From positions 124,001 to 188,000 of the forward strand of contig NZ_CP009428.1 in the NCBI RefSeq assembly GCF_000758725.1: 64,000 bases of DNA, in the 5' to 3' direction. Position numbers and translations under genes: made by a program. The DNA is from Paenibacillus odorifer. Its GTDB lineage: Bacteria; Bacillota; Bacilli; Paenibacillales; Paenibacillaceae. The number at the start of each line of letters is the position of its first letter. The first letter of the stretch is position 1. This document shows positions 4,119 to 40,199 of the stretch, in pieces. The notes under the pieces were generated by a model that had not been told where the DNA came from, did no database searches, and saw only the letters and a program-made list of their open reading frames with translations.

Positions 4119-4275
4119 TTTTTAGATGCAAAGTAGCTGTAGATTAATGGAATTTGCGGGATGACGTTTTATGTTTTCCCCGGTGAATTAAACTTTTGAT
4201 TTCCCCTGTTTTGATGATAGTAAAACGGGTTACGATAAACACCATGTGCCGCTTTTATGTTTGGACTTTATTTAG

Positions 4276-5895
<1,620 letters not shown>

Positions 5896-18159: not shown

Positions 18160-18276
18160 TTTGGTGGCGATAGCGGAGGGGTTCCACACGTACCCATCCC
18201 GAACACGACCGTTAAGCCCTCCAGCGCCGATGGTACTTGGACCGAAGGGTCCTGGGAGAGTAGGACGTTGCCAAGC
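18160..18276 (+). rRNA. 5S ribosomal RNA, between 16S and 23S
   Basis: Reads TTTGGTGGCGATAGCGGAGG to GACGTTGCCAAGC, with the loop A/B sequence CCCATCCCGAACACGACCG and terminal stem TTGGTGGC/GTTGCCAA. It lies 120 bp after the 16S 3' end, ahead of the spacer tRNAs. No second 5S sequence is seen after the 23S, so this is the 5S of the operon in an atypical place. Confidence 0.93.
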
Positions 18277-37590: not shown

Positions 37591-38328
37591 ATGTCTTCTT
37601 TTATTGTATATCCGGCGATTGATATCCGGGATGGAAAATGCGTCAGGCTGCAGCAGGGGGATTACAATCAGGAAACGATATACAATGATAGTCCACTAAA
37701 GGTGGCAAAATCATGGGAAGAGCAAGGTGGAAAGTTCATTCATTTGGTGGACTTAGATGGTGCGAAAGCAGGTCATCCTGTGAACGATGCGATCATCGGG
37801 GCTATTGCTGCTAATGCTAACGTTCCTGTGCAGGTGGGCGGCGGTCTTCGCAATCTTGCGGACGTAGAGAAATTGCTCGGACTTGGCGTTAGCCGCGTCA
37901 TTATCGGTACTGCTGCGATTAACGATCATGCTTTTACCGAAGAGGTATTGGCAAAATACGGCGATAAAGTAGCGATTGGCATTGATGCGCGCAACGGTTA
38001 TGTTGCTACACACGGCTGGCTGAACACTTCCGAAGTTCGTGCTGAAGCTCTTGCCAAAGAATTGGCGGCAAAAGGAGCCGAGACGTTCATTTACACCGAC
38101 ATCTCCCGTGACGGGATGATGCAGGGGCCGAACGTGGACGGTATCCTGTCCATGGCGCAAGCCAGCGGTAAAACAGTGATCGCCTCCGGCGGAGTCACCA
38201 GTCTTGATGATCTGTTGCGTCTGAACGTGCACAACGGCAGCGGTGTGGGTGGAGCTATTGTTGGCAAGGCGTTATACACGGGCAATATTGATCTTTCTGA
38301 AGCTTTGCGAGCGCTTAGGCAGAAGTAG
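37591..38328 (+). CDS. hisA: ProFAR isomerase HisA
   Basis: Opens the ribose of ProFAR to give PRFAR, the fourth step of histidine synthesis. TIM barrel with phosphate loops VGGGLRN and ASGGVTS. The catalytic Asp residues lie in AIDIRDGKCVRL and YTDISRDGMMQGPN. At 245 aa it is complete. GTGGGGAG precedes the ATG. Unlike the rest of the operon it is followed by 1.1 kb of non-coding repeats before hisF. Confidence 0.96.
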   Translation: MSSFIVYPAIDIRDGKCVRLQQGDYNQETIYNDSPLKVAKSWEEQGGKFIHLVDLDGAKAGHPVNDAIIGAIAANANVPVQVGGGLRNLADVEKLLGLGVSRVIIGTAAINDHAFTEEVLAKYGDKVAIGIDARNGYVATHGWLNTSEVRAEALAKELAAKGAETFIYTDISRDGMMQGPNVDGILSMAQASGKTVIASGGVTSLDDLLRLNVHNGSGVGGAIVGKALYTGNIDLSEALRALRQK

Positions 38329-38350
38329 CGTTGGGCGAACGCGCTAATTG

Positions 38351-38579
38351 ATGAGCGGATGAACAAAAAGACGACATGGGTTAGCCAAGGAATAGTGGAT
38401 CAATGAAACAGACAGAACCAACAGTGGGTTAAAGAAATAGACTTAACAGTAACGTAGTGAACACATATCACCAAATCACCAAACTAAATTAATAGACGAG
38501 CGAATGAACAAAAAGACAACAGTTGAGCAATCCAATGAGCAGTGGATAAAAGAAATAGACGTAACAGTAAATGAGTAAC
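38351..38579. repeat. A-rich imperfect direct duplication
   Basis: A block starting at 38351 (GAGCGGATGAACAAAAAGAC) recurs at 38496 (GAGCGAATGAACAAAAAGAC). The second parts, AAAGAAATAGACTTAACAG (38431) and AAAGAAATAGACGTAACAG (38549), also match. The first copy has about 29 extra bases. No coding frame. Confidence 0.75.
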
Positions 38580-38728
38580 TAATAATAATTAAATGAACGC
38601 CCAGAGAAGCAAACTAGCAAAAGTTAAACGAACAAACTAGTAAACCAGCAAAAGGGCTAAACAACAAAGCAACAAAAGAGCTAAAACAAACCAGCTGACC
38701 AATAAAGCAACAAACCCAACTAGCTAAT
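38580..38728. repeat. A-rich, low-complexity tract
   Basis: T-poor on the plus strand, made of short variants such as ACTAGCAAAAG, CCAGCAAAAGGGCTAAA and AAAGCAACAAA. No gene is seen. Confidence 0.6.
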
Positions 38729-39148
38729 GTGTTTCACTTTGTACAATCAAAACTGGTTAAAAATCTCCTTTTCGTGGATTCTACAGGAAACTATTGCACG
38801 AAATGCAACACACTGCTCAACTAGAGGGTATGAGTTCGATTCTATTGCACTGAGTGCAATAGAATGTTGAACTAAGCTGATTATCGGCTAAAACCCGCTG
38901 CACAATCTGCTACAATAGGCGTAATTAGGCGGCGGGAAGGGTATTTTTCCTCGGATGATGATTTAAGTGTACTTTATACAGCTATTTTTCACATTTAGAG
39001 CTGATTAGCTAATTTAGTTGTATTTCGTGCAGCTATAACTCAGAGATGAGTTGATTTATAAGCTCATCCTCAGATTTAGTTGTACGAAATGCAGTTAAAA
39101 GAGTGGCTTGCAAAAAGGCTGATAAAATAACTGCACGTTGTGCAACTA
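38729..39148. repeat. Array of seven degenerate 21-nt palindromes
   Basis: Each unit has arms of the form TAGTTGYAC and RTGCARCTA round a 3-nt loop. Units are at 38729, 38791, 38842, 38964, 39015, 39077 and 39128 (start positions, each 21 nt). Their centres are 62, 51, 122, 51, 62 and 51 bp apart. A decayed eighth unit may lie near 38896-38916. Both loop orientations (GAA and TTC) occur. The sequence between units is unique. It may be a set of protein-binding sites or hairpins in the his transcript; no function is known to me. Confidence 0.8.
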
Positions 39149-39159
39149 AATACTCGTGG

Positions 39160-39420
39160 GCTTGCAGGTGGCGCGAGCCCTTCCGACCACATAAGGGCCA
39201 AAACCGCGGAACATGAAGGTGTTATGGATCTAGGAAGCGGCCCCGAAGGGGTTAGCGATCATAGCACATGTTCAGTAGTGTGGGCTATGGTTCAGCCGGG
39301 TGGGCTATGATCCGCCATGCCAACAATCAAGGTTTCCAAAGGGCAGGGGCCCTTGGGCTCCCCTTGGGCTAAGAGGGCTTTAGGGGGACCGACACACTTT
39401 AGGCGCTTGAAACGCTTTTT
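39160..39420. repeat. GC-richer repeat block before hisF
   Basis: Contains a 20-bp tandem period (GTGGGCTATGGTTC at 39280, GTGGGCTATGATCC at 39300), an inverted pair ATCATAGC/GCTATGAT (39258, 39304), a GGCCCC/GGGGTT hairpin near 39239, and CCCTTGGGCT twice near 39350. No open frame is seen. Confidence 0.6.
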
Positions 39421-39440: not shown

Positions 39441-40199
39441 ATGTTAGCAAAACGTATCATCCCCTGTCTTGACGTTAAGGATGGACGGGTAGTCAAAGGC
39501 GTTAACTTTGTGAATCTGCGTGATGCTGGAGATCCGGTAGAGCTAGCGGCGCTGTATGACCGCGAGGGCGCAGATGAGCTTGTGTTTCTCGATATATCGG
39601 CTTCCGTGGAAGGTAGAGCAACGATGATCGAGGTTGTGCGGCAGACCGCCGGTGAGATTGCCATTCCTTTTACAGTGGGTGGAGGGATCTCTACAACTGA
39701 TGATATGAAAAGGATTCTTCGTGCAGGCGCAGATAAAATCGGCATTAATACGGCAGCCATCACTAATCCTCAGTTAATTTTGGACGGCGCTCGCCGATTT
39801 GGCTCCCAGTGTATTGTAGTAGCGATAGATGCTAAATATAATGAGGCTTTTGGTGAATGGGAAGTGTACACTCATGGCGGGCGTAAGCCCACGGGCATCC
39901 GTGCTCTGGCTTGGGCTAAAGAAGCTGAGAAGCTGGGCGCAGGCGAGATTTTGCTCACTAGTATGGATGCAGATGGCACAAAAGACGGCTTCGATCTGAA
40001 GCTAACCTCGGCAGTATGCGATTTGCTCAGCATTCCTGTGATTGCTTCTGGCGGCGCTGGGAAGAAGGAGCATTTTTACGATGTATTTACGGAAGGGAAA
40101 GCCGATGCGGGACTTGCGGCGACCATTTTTCACTATAAAGAGATTGCAATTAATGATTTAAAGGCAGATTTGAAGCAAAAAGGGGTAGAAATCCGATGA
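39441..40199 (+). CDS. hisF: Imidazole glycerol phosphate synthase, cyclase subunit
   Basis: Joins PRFAR and ammonia from HisH to make imidazole glycerol phosphate and AICAR. TIM barrel with catalytic Asp residues in [14 protein letters not shown] and [14 protein letters not shown], and the phosphate loops VGGGIST and ASGGAGK. At 252 aa it is complete. AAAGAAAGGGGG precedes the ATG. It overlaps hisIE by four bases. Separation from hisA by 1.1 kb raises the question of whether it has its own promoter. Confidence 0.97.

Follow-up and report, generated by a model that had tools for sequence, protein, structure and literature searches.

Two elements between hisA and hisF

In the window, the whole 64,000-nucleotide stretch of Paenibacillus odorifer DNA analysed here, a gap of 1.1 kb separates hisA from hisF and houses two elements made of 21-bp palindromes. 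The genes and features are as follows, with a dot where no strand is assigned.

37591..38328, strand +, hisA, upstream neighbour (ORF; orthologues accompany the element in relatives)
38678..38862, strand., degraded element, end type B (CTA/TGA outer triplets), frame 51-62-51
38729..38749, strand., unit 2 of the degraded element
38791..38811, strand., unit 3 of the degraded element, CTATTGCACGAAATGCAACAC
38842..38862, strand., unit 4 of the degraded element, CTATTGCACTGAGTGCAATAG
38964..39148, strand., intact element of end type A (TAR-N-TGYAY), made of four 21-bp palindromes at 51-62-51 bp from centre to centre
38964..38984, strand., unit 1 of the intact element, TAAGTGTACTTTATACAGCTA
39015..39035, strand., unit 2 of the intact element, TAGTTGTATTTCGTGCAGCTA
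39077..39097, strand., unit 3 of the intact element, TAGTTGTACGAAATGCAGTTA
39128..39148, strand., unit 4 of the intact element, TAACTGCACGTTGTGCAACTA
39441..40199, strand +, hisF, downstream neighbour (ORF; orthologues accompany the element in relatives)

Seven of these units, with centres 62, 51, 122, 51, 62 and 51 bp apart, had been reported in a preliminary description of the locus, and both their positions and their spacings are confirmed in the sequence. Such palindromes are also well above the chance rate (six pattern matches against 0.21 expected in shuffles). The units do not, as had been proposed, form a single seven-unit array. They belong to two four-unit elements, each with 51-62-51 spacing, and the 122-bp step that had been counted as an array spacing is merely the junction between the two copies. 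The intact element is two-fold symmetric overall and scores 105, compared with a maximum of 33 for shuffled loci. The degraded element scores 43.6 in the frame 38678/38729/38791/38842 and has 0 of 8 TA ends. Its unit 1 (38678-38698) is unrecognisable in the P. odorifer window; a relative (L077) has kept all four units of this upstream copy, at 1137/1188/1250/1301. The hisA-hisF element is retained in several species, with units 80-89% identical and spacers 66-68%.

Two other repetitive stretches lie in the same gap. The hisA side (38329-38720) is A-rich, degenerate and repeat-like, with a 31-bp direct repeat at 38422/38540, and is missing from the gaps of most relatives, which are shorter. Just upstream of hisF, two 20-bp direct repeats abut at 39270-39309 (GTTCAG..GTGGGCTATG).

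A dispersed intergenic family

The his-operon palindromes are two copies of a dispersed family of ~185-bp DNA elements. Their location in the his operon, as first described, is correct, but hisA-hisF is only one of dozens of intergenic addresses. The genome scan that had been suggested recovers at least 57 inner unit pairs (62 bp apart) in the 6.81-Mb genome G000 and none with a reversed-pattern control. The 51/62-bp spacing likewise recurs beyond the his locus: 178 of 269 parsed elements are exactly 51-62-51, most others are off by 1 bp at one gap, and related genomes share the spacing. Surveyed with an end-agnostic four-unit pattern, 40 of 73 genus genomes contain the element, in up to 81 exact-spacing copies, and 33 contain exactly none; named hosts include P. 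wynnii, P. silagei, P. phytohabitans, P. tritici and P. tepidiphilus. At the level of the order, the element was found in 9 of 49 genera in a sample of 300 genomes, where half-sites drift and the 62-bp spacing is constant.

Element addresses are intergenic, with only 18 of 269 overlapping an ORF of at least 120 aa. The hosting gene pairs are tandem in 139 cases, convergent in 66 and divergent in only 32, which suggests avoidance of promoter regions. A subfamily of 18 elements in G000, of which three lie in tandem at a single locus, shares spacer and flanking sequence, from which it follows that copies have spread.

The dispersed, intergenic and patchy distribution, together with the spacer and flank sequence common to this 18-copy subfamily, would be expected of a classical non-autonomous transposon (MITE) or of a selfish repeat whose palindromes are functionless. 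However, terminal inverted repeats with a target-site duplication, the hallmark of a MITE, are not what the element displays: across 256 flank offset combinations no duplication rose beyond multiple-testing noise, and on this ground we do not class the element as a MITE. Selection is also visible in the palindromes themselves, whose invariant positions stay 98.9% identical in diverged copies while spacers fall to 76%, and orthologous positions are retained across species. We therefore consider functionless palindromes very improbable. Flank comparison between species gave diffuse empty sites only, with no exact borders.

Several further features accompany individual copies. A terminator-like long hairpin (CCAGGCAGCGATTCTCC..GGAGAATCGCTGCCTGG-TTTTT) lies ~100 bp before the element at seven loci (L031, L041, L086, L094, L096, L101 and L102); it is common to members of the G000 subfamily at a similar distance, as if part of the dispersed unit. 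The flanks of a P. vini element (L145) match the window near 18245 (~18.2 kb) at 97-98%, probably through a conserved RNA gene region. A phage origin was considered and rejected, as IMG/VR gave only two matches, each near a contig end. In these two putative provirus contigs (L240 and L241) the sequence around the element is probably host flank and not phage DNA.

Anatomy of the site

The unit consensus is TARYTGYAY-TTY-RTRCARYTA. Units 1 and 2 have TTY centres and units 3 and 4 have RAA centres, making the element two-fold symmetric as a whole. The element logo is uninformative beyond ~3 bp of flank. In a second end type CTR or TGA replaces TAR, and a third (ATGTTG) is found in another family of the order.

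Changes between the arms of the his units had been described as compensating. A set of 82 non-redundant elements, contributing 328 units, was used as a test: at the variable positions, Watson-Crick pairs are no commoner than independence predicts (0.40 observed and 0.48 expected for pair 3-19, 0.53 and 0.52 for pair 7-15, 0.33 and 0.37 for pair 9-13), and wobble and anti-wobble combinations also occur at independence rates. Each unit could fold as a 9-bp hairpin, and the preliminary description had suggested a row of such hairpins in the his transcript, with selection on pairing; they might act, for example, as attenuators or processing sites. The covariation test contradicts this proposal, the elements are hosted by convergent gene pairs too, no Rfam family matches at its gathering score, and the phased A/T content of the spacers described below is a property of DNA. 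Taken together, these results leave the RNA reading with almost no probability. Linkage between positions is found chiefly within the same half-site or within the centre, a pattern that fits the footprint of a dimeric protein reading two half-sites.

The sequence between units had been called unrelated, which holds for the letters but misses a strict phasing. A/T-rich peaks recur in the spacers with a period of 10.0 bp, aligned to the unit centres, and with an amplitude of 0.122 against a maximum of 0.013 in 500 shuffles. The phasing stops at the element borders and the flanks are flat. Changes at A/T peaks exchange A and T more often than at other positions. We read the phased A/T as a sign of wrapping or tight bending over ~190 bp of DNA, and the data fit a model in which ~190 bp would be wrapped on four protein dimers. 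The data strongly support the other early proposal, a dimeric protein binding an array whose units share one face of the DNA, and the analysis also yielded a specific candidate for that protein.

A DUF559-winged-helix protein is the probable partner

A family of ~222-aa proteins recurs beside elements at unrelated addresses. Its members have an N-terminal DUF559/REase_MTES_1575 domain and a C-terminal winged helix (DUF559-wHTH). Clustering of neighbour genes at ~210 loci returned mainly orthologous addresses; the DUF559-wHTH family was picked from this list and then tested separately. In G000 the candidate partner gene lies at G000:C1:2763454-2764119. PF04480 is above its cut-off in L224 (25.5 vs 20.6), and at E<=1 PF04480 and PF18741 each match 13 of 20 family members. 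D69, E82 and downstream H/D/R positions of the predicted nuclease fold are invariant in a 20-sequence alignment. The profile match and the conserved D..E-x-K/D residues place the protein with DUF559/REase_MTES_1575, for which cleavage is predicted. No HUH/Y1 family was among the profile matches of the linked protein, which were to DUF559/MTES_1575 and winged-helix families instead. The best PDB matches of an AlphaFold2 model (pLDDT 82) are TnsA of Tn7 and the Bax1 endonuclease, with low TM-score.

Each of the 40 element-positive genus genomes has 2-8 members of the family, which is absent from 13 of the 33 negatives. The same holds in other genera, where the family is present in 28/28 element-positive genomes and the element absent from 13/13 family-less genomes. 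Many family-positive genomes in other genera have no TGYA-type element, showing that the family alone is not sufficient. By active-site motif the family divides into classes that include ECDG, E-x-K and EIMD. From this distribution and from the gene neighbourhoods, we regard the DUF559-wHTH protein as the probable partner of the element.

Linkage of ECDG genes and elements

The association is sharpest for the ECDG class. Orthologues at 71% identity or more are present in 36 of the 40 genomes with the element and in none of the 33 without it, although species kinship inflates these statistics. Among the exceptions are a genome with one element and only a gene fragment (G030) and two assemblies that are ~72% complete. 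Another genome (G026, two elements) has a stop inside its ECDG gene, and a further one (G016) has seven elements without an ECDG gene. In a first comparison of classes, 16 of 23 ECDG genes were linked to an element as compared to 0 of 71 E-x-K genes. At 30 ECDG loci from 30 species, chosen by protein similarity alone, a complete element lies no more than 216 bp downstream of the stop in every case (30/30); in G052, on the reading adopted, the last ECDG codon and the first unit have 2 bp in common. Two loci with degenerate units near the gene (L376 and L377) were excluded from the clean linkage cases. The E-x-K (class 1) paralogue was rejected as a partner, being beside TGYA elements in 1 of 30 regions.

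At its conserved locus the DUF559-wHTH gene has ptsG/ptsI and a gene for a CoA-binding protein as neighbours. Thirteen of the loci checked keep the series CoA-binding gene, nuclease, element, ptsG, so the gene appears to be vertically inherited. The same arrangement of gene and element is found in another family at other loci (L310 and L307).

Tandem arrays of three to five whole elements with flanks, at periods of ~276-395 bp, occur at four loci (L039, at 4152-5861, L034, L049 and L089). One five-copy array is directly 3' of an ECDG nuclease gene.

Wing residues track the end type of the site

The element adjacent to the gene is wholly of TA type or wholly of non-TA type, with a single half-site deviating. 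Residue 207, in the predicted wing, is Arg with the TA type in 17 of 17 cases and Gly with the other type in 13 of 13 (30/30), although the wing is coded close to the element and this co-variation could partly reflect joint exchange by recombination. Neighbouring wing residues likewise track the end type. On a tree built without the wing, end type shows about nine parsimony switches, some within well-supported clades. The local end type also correlates with the type of unlinked copies genome-wide (Spearman 0.64, p 1.4e-4). In G000, which has an Arg-type wing, near-complete cores are kept in 96% of 57 type A elements as compared to 3 of 7 non-A elements, a small sample; the upstream his copy is among the decayed non-A elements.

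A motif-free search for four palindromes at 51-62-51, with local shuffling as the null, found arrays with different half-sites (WWWAGGGA-N5-TCCCTWWW; TAAGTGGA-type) in 25 of 50 regions around genes of other paralogue classes, most of them no more than a few hundred bp away from the gene. An example half-site pair beside another class is TAAAGGGA-N5-TCCCTTTA. From these arrays, the geometry is common to the protein family, and it is the half-site that varies by paralogue class.

These results bear on the possibility that what binds the elements is a nucleoid-structuring protein or global regulator, such as an Lrp/AsnC-type octamer seated on four palindromes, with the DUF559-wHTH gene as a passenger. 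Four dimers, 13-bp 5-3-5 cores and wrapping would all be Lrp/AsnC-like, and the palindromes are under strong purifying selection. Nucleosome-like wrapping by multi-subunit assemblies has been proposed for Lrp/AsnC octamers and RemA rings (PMC8481266). However, PF01037 (AsnC_trans_reg) is present in 73/73 genus genomes, including the 33 without the element, and a passenger gene leaves unexplained the element after 30/30 ECDG genes, the match of wing and end type and the paralogue-specific half-sites. Lrp/AsnC and RemA also differ from DUF559-wHTH in protein fold, RemA targets are poorly conserved arrays, and for neither is there a fixed four-palindrome element in dozens of dispersed copies. This distribution is not that of an Lrp site, and we find a global regulator with a passenger nuclease gene improbable.

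A model for the protein and its element

The array at hisA-hisF is, we propose with a probability of roughly three in four, two copies of a dispersed element, each the cognate site of a dedicated DUF559-winged-helix putative nuclease. One protein dimer would bind per palindrome, its recognition helices contacting the invariant TGYA-N5-TRCA core and its wings reaching the outer triplets (TAR or CTR) one helical turn out. Four such dimers, 5, 6 and 5 helical turns apart, would wrap ~190 bp into one two-fold symmetric complex, assisted by A/T-rich minor grooves every 10 bp. As the gene keeps a reference element just past its stop, wing specificity and site type would be inherited or exchanged jointly. 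Copies may then have spread to intergenic DNA and been held there by selection on the palindromes. The system would act like REPIN/RAYT, a settled, vertically inherited nuclease gene maintaining a population of short repeats. Movement of copies by the nuclease itself is the more conjectural step, as neither target-site duplications nor clean empty sites were found.

A less likely alternative accepts the same partner as an architectural or regulatory wrapping factor only, its nuclease fold inert and copies of the element spread by ordinary recombination and duplication. The active-site motif is altered in some paralogue classes (EIMD), the tandem arrays look like ordinary duplication, and a scan of 2.43 Mb of fetched DNA found arrays of the GGGA type at their own genes only, which would suit an autoregulatory site. 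Against inertness, the invariant D69, E82 and downstream H/D/R positions are joined by a DUF559-like ECDG motif retained in the element-linked class, and the dispersed G000 copies with common flanks show spread to many loci. We thus favour a dedicated putative nuclease.

Comparison with known systems

The closest functional likeness is to REPIN/RAYT, also a dispersed, high-copy population of intergenic palindromic repeats with a settled cognate nuclease gene associated with its own repeat. In gammaproteobacterial REPIN/RAYT (TnpA-REP) systems, repeat abundance tracks gene presence (PMC8049555, PMC8266576). RAYTs are HUH tyrosine enzymes, whereas the protein here is a fusion of a DUF559 PD-(D/E)XK-type domain and a winged helix; RAYTs act on single-stranded hairpins, whereas the site here would be double-stranded, non-covarying, four-palindrome and phased for wrapping. 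Because both the enzyme type and the paired stem differ, we place the system outside REP/RAYT.

In domain order (PD-(D/E)XK plus winged helix) the protein resembles TnsA of Tn7, its best Foldseek match (1t0f, E 5.7e-4), although the global TM-score is low (0.26). Tn7 ends carry several protein-binding repeats. These bind TnsB and not TnsA, however, and the element here is not a transposon end pair. At the locus checked, CoA-binding and pts genes flank the nuclease, where a Tn7-like transposon would encode TnsB/TnsC. R.DpnI differs in reading a methylated GATC site, and we know of no gene-linked dispersed cognate repeats for it or for other restriction enzymes that join a nuclease to a winged helix.

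The gene-element association points to an undescribed protein-plus-repeat system. Searches of the open-access literature, with subscription papers outside their reach, for palindromic intergenic repeats of Paenibacillus and for DUF559 with Paenibacillus returned nothing relevant. If our model is correct, the maintenance of short dispersed repeats by a resident nuclease evolved separately from HUH/RAYT, here through an enzyme of the PD-(D/E)XK type and a double-stranded, nucleosome-like site. It would also give a function and a target to a DUF559 protein family, a sequence-defined wrapped complex on the chromosomes of a large soil genus, and a natural setting in which protein and site have co-evolved through many replicated switches of specificity. 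Any host benefit of such repeats could then be tested by comparing carriers and non-carriers within one genus.

Other paralogue classes

More speculatively, and at somewhat less than even odds, the system may be one case of an unrecognised general class in which each DUF559-wHTH paralogue class of the Paenibacillales would be paired with its own four-palindrome 51-62-51 wrapping site next to the gene. One class would have multiplied its site to dozens of copies and would switch specificity repeatedly, through exchange of the 3' gene end coding for the wing along with the adjacent element. Sites of the old type would afterwards decay, a fate that the type B copy in the his gap appears to be undergoing.

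Some class 1 regions also exceeded the array null. These proved to be tandem direct repeats, not clean palindrome arrays, and were set aside. Near class 1 genes, downstream of E-x-K genes at L276 and L285, lie repeats that carry GGGAT/ATCCC motifs and advance in steps of 51 and 61 bp; they are perhaps those genes' own, differently built arrays.
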